DNA from: Lactobacillus psittaci DSM 15354
Lineage (GTDB): Bacteria > Bacillota > Bacilli > Lactobacillales > Lactobacillaceae
Assembly: GCF_000425905.1 (NCBI RefSeq)
Contig: NZ_AUEI01000004.1
Coordinates: 186,001 to 250,000, forward strand
DNA: 64,000 nt
Direction of reading: 5' to 3'
The notes under the pieces are model-generated. The model worked only from the letters and a program-made list of their open reading frames with translations. It had not been told where the DNA came from and did no database searches. This document shows, in pieces, positions 28,160 through 34,435 of this stretch. Positions within the stretch are counted from its first letter, which is position 1. Each line of letters opens with the position of its first letter. The translations under genes and the position numbers were made by a program.

Positions 28160-29533
28160 ATGGCCGAAAAGAAGACATTTAAAAAGGATTTAATTATCAC
28201 CATAAAGCGTTTGGGAATTAATGGTGAGGGAATAGGTTACTACAAGAAAAAGATTATCTTTATTCCTGGAGCATTACCTGGTGAAGTTGTTGTTGCTAAA
28301 ATAATCAAGACTCATCCAGGATATATTGAAGCTGAATTAGTTCGCATTAAAGAAAAGAGCTCTAATCGTGTGGCCTTTCCTGAAAAAGTTGATCCTGAAA
28401 TCGGTGGTTTAGAGCTAGCACATCTAAATTATGATCAGCAGCTTGAATTTAAAAAAGATATCGTCTTAGAATCACTTAGAAAATATCATCCACGTGGTTA
28501 CCAAAAGTACAAAGTGAAAAATACAATTCCTGCCAAGAATATTTGGCACTATCGTGCCAAGGCACAATATCAACTTGAATTTTTCAAAGGTAAAACCAAG
28601 TTAGGAATGTATGCTCCAAACTCTCGGCGCCTAATTGATTTACCTGAAATGCCTACCCAATCTAAAAATACACAAAAAACTGAGCGTTTAATCAAAAAGT
28701 TAATTGATAAATATCATCTTCCTGTTGCAAGTTGGCGCAAACACTTCGATGGCATTAAAACTGTAGTAGTTCGTGAAGCAGCTTCAACCGGTGAAATGCA
28801 AGTTACTTTTATCACTGTTGGTAAGAAAATCAATGGTTTAAAGAAATTAGCTTTAGAAGTTATGAAATTAGACAAAGTAGTTTCTGTTTATCAAAATGAA
28901 ACTGATTGGAACAATCCACAAGTTTGGGGTAATAAGACTATTAAGTTAGCCGGAAAGAACCAAATTGTAGAACATATCTTAGAAAAGAAATTTGCCCTTT
29001 CTCCACGTGCATTCTTCCAGTTAAATCCTGAACAAACTGAAATTCTTTATTCAGAAGCAATTAAACTTCTTAACTTAACTCCTGATCAGGTCCTAATTGA
29101 TGCATACAGTGGCGTTGGAACAATCGGAATTATCGCCAGTGATTATGTCAAACAAGTTATTGGAATTGAGAGTATTCCTGAAGCAGTTGAAGATGCAATG
29201 CATAATGTTAAATTAAATCACGTACGCAATGCGGAATACTTACAAGGTAGCGTTGAAAAAATCTTACCCCAGTTGAAGAATAGTGGCGTACCAATTGATG
29301 CATTAATTGTTGACCCACCAAGAACCGGTTTAGCTAAATCATTGATTAAAACAATAATGCAAGTAAGACCAGAAAGTTTTGTTTATATTTCATGTAACCC
29401 TTCTACTGTTGCTCAAGACTTAGTCATGCTGAGTGAAGTTTATGATGTTCGTGTAATTGAAAATATCGATATGCTTCCACAAACTGCTCGTTGCGAAGCA
29501 ATTGCTAAATTAGTTTTACGAAAAGATATCTAA
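28160..29533 (+). CDS. rlmD: 23S rRNA (uracil-C5)-methyltransferase, RlmD/RlmCD type
   Basis: 457-residue RumA-family enzyme. A TRAM RNA-binding domain occupies the first 70 residues (IKRLGINGEGIGYYKKKIIFIPGALPGE). The SAM-binding domain shows LNPEQTEILY, DAYSGVGTIGI, VDPPRTGL and the catalytic SCNPSTVAQD Cys. In Bacillota one such enzyme can methylate both U747 and U1939. The Fe-S cysteines of E. coli RumA are not evident. Divergent from recX. Confidence 0.93.
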   Translation: MAEKKTFKKDLIITIKRLGINGEGIGYYKKKIIFIPGALPGEVVVAKIIKTHPGYIEAELVRIKEKSSNRVAFPEKVDPEIGGLELAHLNYDQQLEFKKDIVLESLRKYHPRGYQKYKVKNTIPAKNIWHYRAKAQYQLEFFKGKTKLGMYAPNSRRLIDLPEMPTQSKNTQKTERLIKKLIDKYHLPVASWRKHFDGIKTVVVREAASTGEMQVTFITVGKKINGLKKLALEVMKLDKVVSVYQNETDWNNPQVWGNKTIKLAGKNQIVEHILEKKFALSPRAFFQLNPEQTEILYSEAIKLLNLTPDQVLIDAYSGVGTIGIIASDYVKQVIGIESIPEAVEDAMHNVKLNHVRNAEYLQGSVEKILPQLKNSGVPIDALIVDPPRTGLAKSLIKTIMQVRPESFVYISCNPSTVAQDLVMLSEVYDVRVIENIDMLPQTARCEAIAKLVLRKDI

Positions 29534-29540
29534 TTATATA

Positions 29541-29572
29541 AAAATAAGGCCATGTTAGGCCTTATTTTTTTG
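29541..29572 (+). terminator. Terminator of rlmD
   Basis: AAATAAGGCC-ATGTTA-GGCCTTATTT stem followed by TTTT. Confidence 0.92.
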
Positions 29573-29576
29573 CATT

Positions 29577-29618
29577 AAAAAACAGGCTACCCTTGCTTTC
29601 CTAGTAAGTAGCCTGTTT
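29577..29618 (-). terminator. Terminator of the candidate RNA downstream of mvaS
   Basis: Minus strand stem AAACAGGCTAC / GTAGCCTGTTT with an internal CTTACTAGG...AAGGG region, ending in a T run. On the plus strand the hairpin is not followed by T residues, so it works for minus transcription. Confidence 0.88.
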
Positions 29619-29866
29619 ATCAAATGGACGAGGCAGGATTAATTCCTCTAGTCACAATCATCAAATCTTGGCGACGCGACCTTAAAATAACATCACTTGT
29701 TCGAGTTTATTGCGTCAAACGCAATCAAAAAATAATAATCAAATGGAAAATACACGCGTAGCCAATCGAAAAATTAGCTAACACCTCTATTCAGAGAATC
29801 TTCATTTAACTAACAATACAATTCTGGAGATAAAAACCTAATTTTGTTACTTTCTACCTCTTCCAC
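29577..29866 (-). ncRNA. Candidate CcpA-controlled small RNA (about 290 nt)
   Basis: A transcript predicted from its own promoter to its own terminator, lying after mvaS. It has no ORF with a ribosome binding site. Near its 5' end GUGGAAGAGGUAG can pair with CUGCCUCGUCCAU close to its 3' end, giving a long closing stem with one mismatch. Internal hairpins include UAGCUAA/UUGGCUA and AUUGCGU-UUG-ACGCAAU. The shape recalls regulatory RNAs such as 6S RNA, but I cannot match any known family. The promoter is overlapped by a perfect cre site, so CcpA should repress it on preferred sugar. Confidence 0.6.
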
Positions 29867-29872
29867 GCTTCT

Positions 29873-29901
29873 AATATACCATTTTATGTAAACGCTTGCA
29901 A
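29873..29901 (-). promoter_or_regulatory. Promoter of the candidate RNA
   Basis: Minus strand -35 TTGCAA (29896-29901), exact 17-base spacer, -10 TATATT (29873-29878), located just after the mvaS stop codon. Confidence 0.7.
29887..29901 (-). promoter_or_regulatory. cre site (CcpA operator)
   Basis: Minus strand TTGCAAGCGTTTACA matches WTGNAARCGNWWWCA at every position and covers the -35 and half of the spacer of the promoter above. Confidence 0.8.
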
Positions 29902-29904
29902 CAA

Positions 29905-31062
29905 TTATTTATTAGAATATTGTCTAATATTTTCTTGAGTTCCTGCAAAGTACCAACCACTAGCATCAGAGCTTACTTCTTCATTAGCCCCTAAATCTTT
30001 CAAACTATCATTAAATATCTTTTCATATTCGTCAACTGCTAGCTTTTGACGATTTTCAAGCATTTCTTCGTGCTTTTCAGGAGCTAATTGTTTTTCATAA
30101 CCATCTACCAATCGGCCAGTGAAAAATTCAGCCATCGCACCTGAACCATATGAAAATAAGCCAATTAAACTGCCAGCTTTTGGTTGATCCACTTCAAGTA
30201 AACTAAGAAGTGACATGTAAAGTGAGGCAGTATAAATATTACCAACTTCTTTACCATATGTTGCTCCTGCCACAAACTTATCAAGTAAGCGAGCAGTTGT
30301 TTCTGGAGCTTGACCTTCGATAGCCAATTTAAGGGCTTTTTGTCCCATTTTAGTGAATGGTAAGTGGAAAAGTAAGGCTTCAAAATCACTGGTTTTTAAA
30401 TTTTGCTTTTGGATATAATCTTCAAAACAGTGCTTAAAGAAATCAAGATAAACATTAGTTGAATATTTGCCATCAACTAAAGCACATTTGAAGTTGTTGG
30501 GACGCCAAAAGTCATCAATATCATCTGAGTACATACTAGTTTCACTGTCAATTTCCATAATGCTTGGATCTTTTTTAATGAGCAAACTAATACTACCGGC
30601 ACCTTGTGTAACTTCTCCAGGAGTTGCCACACCGTAGCGAGCAATATCACTACCAATAACGATGGCTGTTTTATCTTCATGAGCTTTGACATAGTCAATT
30701 GCCGTCATAATTGCAGCAGTAAGACCAAAGCAAGCTTCCTTTAATTCAAAAGTTCTAATGTTTTTAGGTAAATTCAAGGCCTTTTTAACAAATAATGAAG
30801 CAGACTTTGATTGATCTACACTTGATTCAGTACCAAATACTAGTAAGCCCAACTTATCAAGTTCAATCTTATCAATATATTCACTAGTTGCATTGATTGC
30901 CATTGAAACAGCATCTTGGCTTTTATCAGCAACTGCCATCTTATTTTGACCGATACCAATTAAAAATTTCCCAGAATCAACATCGCGGGCCTTAGCTAAA
31001 TCCACCATATCTACAAATTTATTTGGTGTATAAAAACCAATTTTATCAATACCGACTTTCAT
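29905..31062 (-). CDS. mvaS: Hydroxymethylglutaryl-CoA synthase
   Basis: 385-residue enzyme that condenses acetyl-CoA and acetoacetyl-CoA into HMG-CoA, second step of the mevalonate route to isoprenoids. The nucleophilic Cys111 lies in ELKEACFGLTAA, the general-base glutamate region is near residue 80 (FGTESSVDQSKSAS), and the His motif is FKHCF near 230. Length equals the S. aureus enzyme. It starts 2 bases after mvaA ends. Third gene of thiolase-mvaA-mvaS. Confidence 0.97.
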   Translation of the reverse strand: MKVGIDKIGFYTPNKFVDMVDLAKARDVDSGKFLIGIGQNKMAVADKSQDAVSMAINATSEYIDKIELDKLGLLVFGTESSVDQSKSASLFVKKALNLPKNIRTFELKEACFGLTAAIMTAIDYVKAHEDKTAIVIGSDIARYGVATPGEVTQGAGSISLLIKKDPSIMEIDSETSMYSDDIDDFWRPNNFKCALVDGKYSTNVYLDFFKHCFEDYIQKQNLKTSDFEALLFHLPFTKMGQKALKLAIEGQAPETTARLLDKFVAGATYGKEVGNIYTASLYMSLLSLLEVDQPKAGSLIGLFSYGSGAMAEFFTGRLVDGYEKQLAPEKHEEMLENRQKLAVDEYEKIFNDSLKDLGANEEVSSDASGWYFAGTQENIRQYSNK

Positions 31063-31064
31063 AC

Positions 31065-32291
31065 TTAATTATTTTCCTCTCTAATTTCTTGTAAAAACTT
31101 TTTTGCGTCAGTTTCACTATAACGTTTTTGCTTTTGCATTAGTTCTTTTACTGAATTTTTTTCTTCATCAGTTGCTGTTAGATTCTTTAAGACATTACGG
31201 ATTTGTAAACTCATGTGTCCCTTTTGAATCCCCACAGTTGAAATAGCAAGTAAAGCAGCTAAGTTGTTAGCTAACCCAACTGCTGCAATAATTTCCGCTA
31301 GTTCACTAGCAGTTACCTGTCCCAAAATCCGATAAGCAACTTGGACGTCACTTCGCGATTTAATTGAGCCGCCAACAACACCAATTGCAAGTGGCAATTT
31401 TATTTCACCAACTAGCTTATTATCTTCAATTCGCCAGTTACTTAAACTTTGATAACTACCTGATAAACTTGCGGCTTGATGACAAGCTGCTTCTACAGCG
31501 CGGAAATCATTACCTGTTGCCAGCAAAATCGCATCCACACCATTCATAATCCCTTTATTATTAGTAACAGCGCGATATGGATCTTCTTGACCAATTTTAC
31601 TAAGTAAAACAATTTTTTGAGCTATTTTTTTACCAATTTTTTCATCTTTAGTTTTAGTTAAACTGGCAAAAGCCAAAGAGACTTTAGCGTAAGTATATTG
31701 ACTAGGATAGTTAGATAAAATTGCATATAGTTTTTCAATTGTAAAATCTTGACTGATTTTTTGTCCCAAAAACTCCAAAATTGCATTAGTCCGATTAGCT
31801 CCCATGCTTTCTGCAGGATCAACTAACACCCGTAAAAACAATAAATCTGCTTTTACTTCAGCGATAATTTGTCTAACGCCACCACCATGCTTAACTAGTG
31901 ATGCAAATTCCTCGTTAACTAATTTTAGATAATCCGGCTTTTTAGCTTCAAATTCAGCTAATGAAAATTCTGCTGCTTCAAAAACTAATTGTCCCCAAAT
32001 ACCTGTCCGCTCACTTTTAGCGCTAACTCCACCATTTTGGTTAAAGATATTTAAGCCATGGTTAGCTGCAGCAACAACTGATGACTCTTCAGTTGCCACT
32101 GGAACTTGAAAGCTTTGTCCATTAACAATTGCGGTTTGCAAAACTGATAATGGTAAAGTTAGTTTGCCAATTACATTTTCACTAAGCAAATCTAATTCAC
32201 TTAATAAATCGTCATCAACATGATTCAGCTTAATTCCATTTTGAAGCAGCATTTTTCGCCGCTCACTTATTGGCAACTGATAAAATTTCAT
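31065..32291 (-). CDS. mvaA: Hydroxymethylglutaryl-CoA reductase (class II)
   Basis: 408-residue bacterial class II HMG-CoA reductase, which reduces HMG-CoA to mevalonate. Visible motifs: the catalytic glutamate segment VATEESSVVAAANHG, the Asp/Lys region NNKGIMNGVDAILLATGNDFRAVEA with the nucleotide contact, and the late histidine in KGHMSLQ. No membrane anchor, as usual in bacteria. Separated by 3 bases from the thiolase stop. Statin-insensitive class expected. Confidence 0.96.
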   Translation of the reverse strand: MKFYQLPISERRKMLLQNGIKLNHVDDDLLSELDLLSENVIGKLTLPLSVLQTAIVNGQSFQVPVATEESSVVAAANHGLNIFNQNGGVSAKSERTGIWGQLVFEAAEFSLAEFEAKKPDYLKLVNEEFASLVKHGGGVRQIIAEVKADLLFLRVLVDPAESMGANRTNAILEFLGQKISQDFTIEKLYAILSNYPSQYTYAKVSLAFASLTKTKDEKIGKKIAQKIVLLSKIGQEDPYRAVTNNKGIMNGVDAILLATGNDFRAVEAACHQAASLSGSYQSLSNWRIEDNKLVGEIKLPLAIGVVGGSIKSRSDVQVAYRILGQVTASELAEIIAAVGLANNLAALLAISTVGIQKGHMSLQIRNVLKNLTATDEEKNSVKELMQKQKRYSETDAKKFLQEIREENN

Positions 32292-32294
32292 TTT

Positions 32295-33440
32295 TTATTT
32301 CACCCGTTCAATCTCAAAGGCAATTGCTAGCCCGCCTCCAATACAAAGGCTGGCAATTCCTCTTTCTTTATTTTCACTAATTAAAGAATGAGCTAAAGTA
32401 CCTAAAATTCTCGCACCACTTGCTCCTAATGGATGTCCCAATGCTAAGGCTCCACCATGAATATTAACCTTACTATGGTCCAAGTGCAATTCTTTTTCAA
32501 CAGCTAGACTAGTTGCAGCAAAAGCTTCATTAATTTCAAACAAGTCAATATCAGCTAGAGTTTGCCCATTTTCCTGCAATAATTTCTCAATAACTACTTT
32601 AGGACCAAAGCCCATAATTTGTGGATCAAGCCCCACTTCGGCATAGGCGGTTAACTTGGCAAGTGGCTTTAAGTTCAATTCTTTAACCTTATCTTCAGTA
32701 GCTAAAATTAACATACTTGCCCCATCTGATAAAGGTGATGAGTTACCAGCTGTAGCAACACCACCTTCTTTAAAGACCGTCTTCAAACTAGCTAACTTTT
32801 CAACATTTGAATCTGGCCGTACATTTTCATCATGATCTAATTCTGCCAAAGGAGTAATTTCTTGATTAAAGAAGCCAGCAGCCTGTGCGCGAGCTGCTTT
32901 TTGATGTGAATCCACACTAAATTCATCTGCTTCAGCGCGACTTATCCCATATTTAACAGCGACATTTTCACAAGTATTTCCCATTAACTTGTTGCTAAAT
33001 GAATCAGTTAGACCATCATTGAGCATACTATCAACAAAATTAGGATTATCTTTTTCGGATTTTTTAGCTAGAAGTGGCGCATTAGTCATACTCTCACTAC
33101 CACCAACTGCGACAAGATCTAAATCGCCAATAAGCATTTGAGCTTGGGCTAAACGAACAGCCTTAAGTGAAGATCCACATACTTCATTAATTGTTGTAGC
33201 AACACTTTCTTCTCTCATCCCGCTATTAATAGCAACTTGACGAGCCATATTCTGTCCAAGTCCTGCACTTAAAACATTTCCCATAAATAAGGCATCTAAG
33301 TCACTAGAACGCAAATTAGCAGCCTTCAAGGCGTCTTTAAGGGCATAAGTCCCTAACTCTACGGCATTAAAAGCTGCTAACTGACCACGATAACGACCAA
33401 AAGGTGTTCTCTTTGCGGCGATAATATAAATGTCTTGCAT
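32295..33440 (-). CDS. Acetyl-CoA acetyltransferase (thiolase)
   Basis: 381-residue biosynthetic thiolase making acetoacetyl-CoA. The acyl-accepting Cys88 lies in NEVCGSSLKA, the catalytic His in GGALALGHPLGASGARI, and the C-terminal CIGGGLAIA cysteine is intact. Start at ATG 33440 (MQDIY): AGAGGAAA precedes it, while the 33455 ATG has no site. First of the three upper-mevalonate genes, placed 41 bases behind the alpha/beta hydrolase and possibly read through from its promoter. Confidence 0.95.
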   Translation of the reverse strand: MQDIYIIAAKRTPFGRYRGQLAAFNAVELGTYALKDALKAANLRSSDLDALFMGNVLSAGLGQNMARQVAINSGMREESVATTINEVCGSSLKAVRLAQAQMLIGDLDLVAVGGSESMTNAPLLAKKSEKDNPNFVDSMLNDGLTDSFSNKLMGNTCENVAVKYGISRAEADEFSVDSHQKAARAQAAGFFNQEITPLAELDHDENVRPDSNVEKLASLKTVFKEGGVATAGNSSPLSDGASMLILATEDKVKELNLKPLAKLTAYAEVGLDPQIMGFGPKVVIEKLLQENGQTLADIDLFEINEAFAATSLAVEKELHLDHSKVNIHGGALALGHPLGASGARILGTLAHSLISENKERGIASLCIGGGLAIAFEIERVK

Positions 33441-33481
33441 CAAATTTCCTCTCATTTCTCCAAAATCTGATGCTAATTTTA

Positions 33482-34435
33482 CTATTTGATGTACTTATTT
33501 AAAAATGCTTTGATTCTAGCTTTATATTCATGGGGATGAGTTGCAAATGATTTAGCATGGCTAGCACCTGGCACTACCCAGAGCTGTTTTGGTCCACGAC
33601 TAGCACGATAATTCTTATAAACCATTTCAGTTGGTACAAAAGTATCTTTTGCCCCATGGATAAACAGCATCGGCTTTGTATTATGCTTAAGCATCTTAAT
33701 GCTATCAGCATCTCCTAAGAAATAACCAGCTCTCAAACGAGTTATTCCACTCAAAATTTCAACCAAAGGGAAGCGTGGAAAAGTTGGCATCGAATAAATT
33801 GCTTGAGCTTCATGCTCAATTTCATTCTTAGCATTAGTATACCCACAATCTTCAATAAAAGCCTTAACCTGACTAGGTAGTTTCAAGCCACTAGTCATCA
33901 TCGTTGTAGCACCACCCATTGAAACTCCAAAAATCACAATCTCTTGTTTAGGATTATCTTTGAGCAATTTCTGAATCCATTTTTTTATATCATCTTTTTC
34001 CATCCAGCCATACCCAACATAATTCCCCTGACTTTGACCATGTCCACGTGCATCTGGAAGCAAGACATTGTAGCCCAAAGAATGAAATAAAGCGGCATAT
34101 TCACCCATTCCATCTTTATTATTCATATAACCATGCAAAATAATAACAGTCTTTTTGGAATTATTATTTTTGATATAATTGGCATCAAGACGTAATTTAT
34201 TGTCACTACTCATCATGTATAGATGTTTTTTAGTAGCCTTTTTATACCAAAGTTTTTCTTGATACAAGGAATCAGACTTAGTAAGTGGTTTACTACTACT
34301 TAAAAATGTTTTGTGTCCCGGAACTACTGCTACATTATAAAAATACATCCCTGCCCCAGCAAAAGCAAAAATGATGAAGGTGATAATTCCACCTAACCAT
34401 AAAACAAGACGGTTATGCTTTTTATTTTTTTGCAT
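33482..34435 (-). CDS. Membrane-anchored alpha/beta hydrolase
   Basis: 317 residues. A single N-terminal hydrophobic segment (about 10-32) anchors an extracytoplasmic alpha/beta hydrolase. The oxyanion HGYMNNKDG, the nucleophile elbow GVSMGG, an acid near GAKDTF and the catalytic histidine in GASHAKS are visible. It resembles the YqkD-type hydrolases of Bacillota; substrate unknown. It precedes the thiolase-mvaA-mvaS genes on the same strand with no terminator between. The promoter is covered by a 13-bp palindrome. Confidence 0.85.
   Translation of the reverse strand: MQKNKKHNRLVLWLGGIITFIIFAFAGAGMYFYNVAVVPGHKTFLSSSKPLTKSDSLYQEKLWYKKATKKHLYMMSSDNKLRLDANYIKNNNSKKTVIILHGYMNNKDGMGEYAALFHSLGYNVLLPDARGHGQSQGNYVGYGWMEKDDIKKWIQKLLKDNPKQEIVIFGVSMGGATTMMTSGLKLPSQVKAFIEDCGYTNAKNEIEHEAQAIYSMPTFPRFPLVEILSGITRLRAGYFLGDADSIKMLKHNTKPMLFIHGAKDTFVPTEMVYKNYRASRGPKQLWVVPGASHAKSFATHPHEYKARIKAFLNKYIK

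Follow-up and report, generated by a model that had tools for sequence, protein, structure and literature searches.

The 64,000-nucleotide stretch of Lactobacillus psittaci DSM 15354 DNA analyzed here (contig NZ_AUEI01000004.1, positions 186,001 to 250,000; hereafter the window) contains an intergenic gap of 371 bp (29534-29904), which extends from the stop codon of an RlmD-type methyltransferase gene (29533) to the stop codon of mvaS (29905). A preliminary description had placed in this gap, estimated at about 370 bp, a discrete transcription unit of about 290 nt with its own promoter, a cre site, a closing stem with one mismatch and an intrinsic terminator, and each of these elements is present in the sequence as claimed. 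The features are as follows.

28160-29533, plus strand: RlmD-type 23S rRNA methyltransferase gene, convergent neighbour (NCBIfam rumA/RlmD, 363.6 bits at a cut-off of 183.55)
29577-29868, minus strand: predicted non-coding RNA, about 290 nt
29577-29617, minus strand: intrinsic terminator, AACAGGCUAC...GUAGCCUGUU hairpin and U run (read from the sequence)
29624-29636, minus strand: 3' strand of the closing stem P1, CUGCCUCGUCCAU, partner of 29854-29866
29650-29681, minus strand: stem GGUCGC...GUGAC (helix 7)
29710-29724, minus strand: hairpin UUGCGUUUGACGCAA (helix 5), 100% of cells paired in 15 relatives
29758-29782, minus strand: hairpin GUUAGC...GGCUAC (helix 4), three pairs with two-sided changes in 15 relatives
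29784-29800, minus strand: hairpin GAUUCUCU-GAAU-AGAGG (helix 3), one pair with two-sided changes in 15 relatives
29824-29836, minus strand: conserved segment UUUUUAUCUCCAG, complementary to GGAGAU-type Shine-Dalgarno sequences (comparison of 60 loci)
29854-29866, minus strand: 5' strand of P1, GUGGAAGAGGUAG, pairing with 29624-29636 (duplex of -18.9 kcal/mol)
29873-29901, minus strand: sigma-70-type promoter TTGCAA-N17-TATATT with TG preceding the -10 box (promoter scan)
29887-29901, minus strand: cre site (CcpA operator) TTGCAAGCGTTTACA, overlapping the -35 box, 0 mismatches to WTGNAANCGNWNNCW, which we take to be the cre consensus
29905-31062, minus strand: mvaS (HMG-CoA synthase), upstream neighbour in this lineage (Pfam HMG_CoA_synt_N and _C)

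We infer that the 5' end of the RNA would lie a few nucleotides past the -10 box. The closing stem comprises 12 pairs, two of them G-U, and one A.G mismatch, and the hairpin with U run at 29617-29577 ends the unit; a simple terminator scan reported none at the locus because it limited loops to 8 nt or fewer. The predicted fold is a multi-hairpin one, and the 309-nt stretch 29560-29868 reaches -82.9 kcal/mol as compared with a mean of -66.1 kcal/mol for 100 shuffles (z -3.64), all 100 of which it beats. Beyond the terminator, directly after the rlmD-type gene, lies a separate symmetrical hairpin (29540-29571) with U/A runs on both sides, which looks like a bidirectional terminator.

The element was followed through the genus by similarity and by gene order. 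Of 75 Lactobacillus genomes, 47 were matched by BLASTN at E ≤0.01, some of them by chance, and locus-by-locus reading recognized 41 copies by similarity; a model of the 5' segment made from the sequences of 33 of these copies alone matched 44 of the 75 at E ≤0.01, a few of them weakly. Of the 34 genomes left, 24 were read at the position convergent with the rlmD-type gene, which yielded 19 diverged copies with promoter and terminator, only a remnant in G041, and no element within the 700 nt taken in G053, G044, G007 and G074. The 41 copies found by similarity and the 19 found by gene order make 60 of 65 examined Lactobacillus genomes, a set which includes near relatives and leaves out ten of the 75 (G039, G040, G045, G056, G057, G062, G063, G064, G066 and G070). 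The predicted total length varies from about 135 to 365 nt. A pattern scan of the genomes of 84,980 species returned 19 contigs, all from Lactobacillus, the species including L. johnsonii, L. taiwanensis, L. hominis, L. delbrueckii, L. equicursoris, L. nasalidis, L. kalixensis, L. ultunensis, L. kitasatonis, L. acetotolerans, L. corticis and L. jensenii DSM 20557; the RNA copy in G022:C67 is 82% identical to that of the window. Among 198 genomes of the order the 5'-segment model gave 12 matches, nine in Lactobacillus and three weak ones in other genera (E 5.6e-4 to 8.6e-4), the latter taken as chance. Nine other genera of the family, represented by 16 genomes, were read over the 600 nt next to the rlmD-type gene: the element was not seen there by eye, and ATCTCC was missing in all 16; one of these genomes (L236) holds a perfect cre match, but it adjoins another gene. 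A search of the phage collection for a phage origin of the element gave no match.

The promoter scan by itself performed no better than chance (3 found vs 5.4 expected), and the promoter is set beyond chance by its conservation across the genus; the spacer stays within 15-18 nt in all 41 loci in which it was read. The cre match at the -35 position, perfect in the window (29901-29887) as had been described, is likewise kept genus-wide: over the 60 loci it has no mismatch in 35, one in 21, two in three and three in one, the last four loci being L017, L206, L217 and L210. A cre overlapping the promoter, the arrangement looked for in a CcpA-repressed sRNA, was thus found in 56 of 60 loci when no more than one mismatch is allowed, vs a background rate of 0.36% for matches of that quality at an equal number of offsets in flanking DNA. 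Moreover, the half of the cre that falls inside the promoter spacer, where the promoter itself does not need it, is intact in 54 of 60 loci. CcpA bound at this site should repress transcription, and on these sequence grounds the RNA is probably switched off by glucose.

Conservation of the closing stem among relatives, proposed earlier as a check, was found as well, with a predicted P1 duplex of -8 kcal/mol or lower in 59 of 60 loci. For 19 representatives, hand-picked as one or a few per sequence class, the mean duplex was -16.2 kcal/mol with their own strands, -13.3 with swapped strands and -9.0 with shuffled 3' ends; the observed sum was reached in 2 of 20,000 permutations of the strands (p ~1e-4), and own pairing exceeded the mean of a representative's own swaps in only 12 of the 19. 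Nine terminator starts (L006, L008, L011, L012, L014, L015, L022, L026 and L206) were set by hand, since the finder had picked a different hairpin or one at a greater distance from the stem, and in another stem search the stretches found for L017 and L028 were wrong places. In the shortest forms (G047, G046) most of the P1 letters have changed and the pairing is retained. These two loci (L043 and L229, respectively) have only about 110 nt ahead of the terminator and a largely different closing stem, and their AUCUCC segment apparently sits in a small hairpin loop.

The support for the internal helices is modest. In the alignment of 15 relatives, which was made without the window's own copy, 95.6% of cells over 49 pairs were paired vs 94.0% after shuffling (0 of 500 as high), and seven pairs had two-sided changes vs 3.6 in shuffles (5 of 500 as high); the consensus structure was hand-drawn on one member sequence, so that only shuffles, and not slides, are a fair control. 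RNAalifold with 20 sequences found two-sided changes in 4 of 33 pairs and a small covariation term. In helix 5 an A-U pair is replaced by G-C in two of the 20 alignment rows, those of this species and its sister. The closing stem appears better supported than these helices.

That no translated ORF is present, another point of the preliminary description, holds at both levels of the analysis. Inside the gap the only listed ORF of at least 40 aa is one of 45 aa on the opposite strand, and across loci no reading frame is kept: relative to the GUG within P1, the conserved motif falls in all three frames (21/18/15 over 54 loci), and a protein-coding gene was accordingly rejected. A small protein read from this GUG is scarcely credible, for although frames of 60-67 aa open from it in 4 of 60 loci, they measure 2-43 aa in 51 and the GUG itself is missing in five.

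The gene order around the element separates stable from changing neighbours. The rlmD-type gene is convergent with the RNA in 40 of 41 loci, while the gene upstream of it is an alpha/beta hydrolase in 26, mvaS in 12 and neither in three. The tie to mvaS which the first reading of the locus had suggested is therefore not borne out, and any link of the RNA to the mevalonate genes was rejected. In the window the hydrolase homologue (33482-34435) stands just past the thiolase, mvaA and mvaS genes, and this thiolase-mvaA-mvaS block separates it from the RNA; the region from mvaS through the hydrolase gene covers 29905-34435. Read from gene order, the block would be an insertion or rearrangement common to L. 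johnsonii-like genomes, and its presence between hydrolase and RNA in this lineage makes the position after mvaS an accident. The changing upstream gene also bears on the view that there is no free RNA and that the upstream gene, mvaS or the hydrolase, simply ends here with its 3' UTR and terminator. The upstream gene was identified in 38 loci, and in 36 of them its match ends 38-65 nt ahead of P1, so that read-through is likely in addition; but the promoter and cre are kept just past the stop while the upstream gene changes among the 41 loci, P1 and the motif are kept too, and we consider a mere 3' UTR very unlikely.

Comparison with known RNA families, which the preliminary description had called for, gave no family at the gathering threshold on the RNA in a covariance-model search with Rfam 15, the only family matched in the window being a tRNA; at a loose threshold all matches on the RNA had E ≥0.24 and were below gathering. 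RNase P, tmRNA and SRP RNA, motifs of which had not been recognized earlier either, gave no covariance-model match, nor did ARAGORN call a tmRNA. A literature search revealed no description of the RNA among the matches listed (supplements lay outside the search). The family which required closer consideration was 6S RNA, as RF00013 matched none of 19 Lactobacillus genomes vs 12 of 12 from other Lactobacillales, which raises the question whether the RNA is a 6S RNA that the Rfam model misses because of divergence. According to PMC8414754, a cre is found at the 6S gene promoter in about one third of lactic acid bacteria (LAB) species, with CcpA repression in L. lactis, which would suit this view, but the same source gives rarA-usp as the 6S locus of LAB, and there another RNA is located. 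RF01710 (Lacto-usp) matches 12 of 13 Lactobacillus genomes, including this one (G000:C1:103866-103956), and 0 of 8 others, and in the three loci read (L031, L032, L033; genes named by eye) it lies between rarA and usp. Lacto-usp, present at the LAB 6S locus in the genus where RF00013 fails, thus looks like the Lactobacillus 6S RNA under another name. The new RNA has no RF00013 match, no rod with a central bubble, its fold being multi-hairpin, and no rarA-adjacent locus, and its 6S identity was rejected; a divergent 6S RNA is largely refuted and highly improbable. An action on polymerase in the 6S manner, suggested before, is likewise not supported, the genus having its own 6S RNA at the rarA-usp locus.

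Taken together, these data make it very probable that the element is a genuine gene for a non-coding RNA, spread across the genus and absent from Rfam, and that its CcpA operator is conserved. The preliminary description thus stands as regards a discrete gene with its own promoter, closing stem and terminator and, now genus-wide, the cre at the -35 box, and falls as regards mvaS and the 6S-type action.

A clue to what the RNA may do comes from the segment complementary to Shine-Dalgarno sequences. It reads UUUAUCUCCA in 44 of 60 loci, UCUAUCUCCA in eight and other letters at the best match in eight, with AAUCUCU in five genomes of one branch, and is predicted to be unpaired (0.74 in this RNA; mean of 0.60 over the full RNA of 41 loci). 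Exact TGGAGATAAAAA occurs at five sites in this genome, namely the RNA gene itself and four ribosome-binding sites (RBSs), those of rarA (by eye), a ROK-family kinase, a GPH sugar symporter and a MalK/UgpC-type ABC ATPase. The exact site is shared by three sugar-type genes (L056, L057, L055) situated within 25 kb of one another (G000:C3:113207-138053). With one mismatch, and among the first 30 matches listed, it is found at the RBSs of lacD and a PTS EIIA gene, and likewise at those of murD, murI and a Sir2-like gene (the last three by eye). Among 13 candidate sites the strongest predicted duplexes were those of GPH (-23.3 kcal/mol), lacD (-22.8), PTS EIIA (-20.6) and rarA (-19.3), all four stronger than any of 43 RBSs taken from the window (-18.8 at best); as the candidates were selected by motif and exceeded the controls by 3 nt in the length of the stretch used, these values rank candidates and prove nothing. 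A slightly different RNA segment gave -21.7 for GPH, -21.0 for lacD and -20.2 for EIIA. The three strongest predicted partners in this genome are thus sugar genes (GPH symporter, lacD, PTS EIIA).

GGAG with A-rich surroundings is the usual look of RBSs. Gene starts with GGAGATAAA in this genome belong to sugar genes in 3 of 11 cases vs 0 of 7 for the control GGAGAAAAA, numbers which are partly by eye and much too small for a conclusion. The pattern GGAGATAAA-N{2,9}-ATG in 15 genomes gave 83 rows at 81 distinct places, of which 80 were read (the omitted one is the RNA gene itself), 15 of these being without an ORF. No target recurred widely across the 15 genomes, the GGAGATAAA site being shared at few genes and each time by two or three genomes. 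Sugar genes appear occasionally, with a sugar ABC ATPase in two species, a GRP/GlcU-like transporter in two and PTS parts (by eye), among many other genes such as ddl in three, alaS in two, aspS, murI and obgE. Two related genes that resemble GRP/GlcU-type sugar transporters (L171 in G009 and L198 in G026; by eye) have GGAGATAAA at their ribosome sites; in Staphylococcus aureus glcU_2 is a target of RsaI. The lacD match with GGAGATAAAAAC was present in none of the other 74 genomes, and the rarA match is missing from three relatives.

The segment may also take part in a folding switch. In predictions for nascent RNA of the 41 main-branch loci it is paired with the 5' strand of P1 (mean of 0.83) and in the full RNA hardly so (0.04), while a shuffled 5' end already gives 0.58 at these loci. 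For the 19 diverged loci the nascent mean is 0.43 vs 0.45 in the control; at six of them (L212, L214, L220-L222 and L224) the motif finder took the wrong place, and the other 13 give about 0.50 vs 0.59 (averaged by hand). We therefore regard a switch as a possibility for the main branch only; with the segment released on formation of the closing stem, only finished transcripts would be active.

In the model we propose, CcpA with HPr-Ser-P would repress the RNA on glucose. On a poor sugar the RNA would be made, its ends would be closed by folding and the UUUAUCUCCA segment would be exposed, which could then pair with GGAGAU-type Shine-Dalgarno regions and block translation of some mRNAs, including those of sugar uptake and breakdown genes, so that the RNA would act as a brake alongside transcriptional carbon catabolite control. 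The downward direction of the effect is borrowed from RsaI of S. aureus, which, according to PMC9266662, is repressed by CcpA on glucose, pairs with the Shine-Dalgarno sequences of glcU_2 and fn3K and blocks their translation. The chances appear evenly balanced that the element is a free-standing CcpA-controlled regulatory sRNA of Lactobacillus with such an RsaI-like anti-Shine-Dalgarno mechanism. A broader reading is more doubtful and is offered only tentatively: the RNA would be a genus-wide second arm of carbon catabolite control, CcpA-repressed and closing its ends, with an exposed anti-Shine-Dalgarno segment braking costly sugar systems, its targets turning over fast between species while RNA and operator stay, and, in the main branch, with the 5' strand hiding the segment until the closing stem forms.

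We know of no protein partner of the RNA. Nevertheless, a CcpA-controlled structured RNA which binds a protein or the ribosome, or sponges another sRNA, and does not pair with sugar mRNAs, is a distinct possibility, if a rather unlikely one. Beyond AUCUCC, several hairpins and conserved stretches (ACCCGAACAAGUGA) are present in the long forms, no widely conserved mRNA target was found in the genomes compared, and RsaI also binds other sRNAs (PMC9217828, PMC9266662); against this, the short forms of about 136-165 nt including the terminator (G046, G047 and the G050 group) keep mainly P1 and the UAUCUCC/AAUCUCU region.

Lactobacillus has wide use in food and is a common member of the vaginal flora; to our knowledge, few regulatory RNAs have been described in it. 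An RNA with a conserved CcpA operator, absent from Rfam and present in 60 of 65 examined genomes, offers a handle on post-transcriptional carbon control in the genus, together with named candidate targets. Being of a known functional kind, it would bring no new principle unless the switch or the turnover of targets is borne out. It would resemble RsaI in the proposed repression by CcpA on glucose and in the putative pairing with Shine-Dalgarno regions, both only predicted for the Lactobacillus RNA, and differs in genus, locus and size, and in having a pyrimidine AUCUCC segment, whereas RsaI has G-rich regions which bind the UCCCC motifs of RsaE (PMC9217828); the proposed likeness is one of functional kind, and the all-Rfam scan gave no family at threshold. 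The LAB 6S RNA or Lacto-usp (RF01710) offers a second comparison, as there too the gene is that of a small RNA and, in about one third of LAB species, has a promoter cre (PMC8414754); the new RNA differs from them in locus, theirs being rarA-usp, and in fold, Lacto-usp being present separately in the same genome. Finally, like ArgX of Lactococcus lactis, which PMC6586332 describes as arising from the 3' UTR region of the preceding gene, it is a LAB sRNA located just 3' of the gene before it; ArgX acts on the arginine deiminase pathway.
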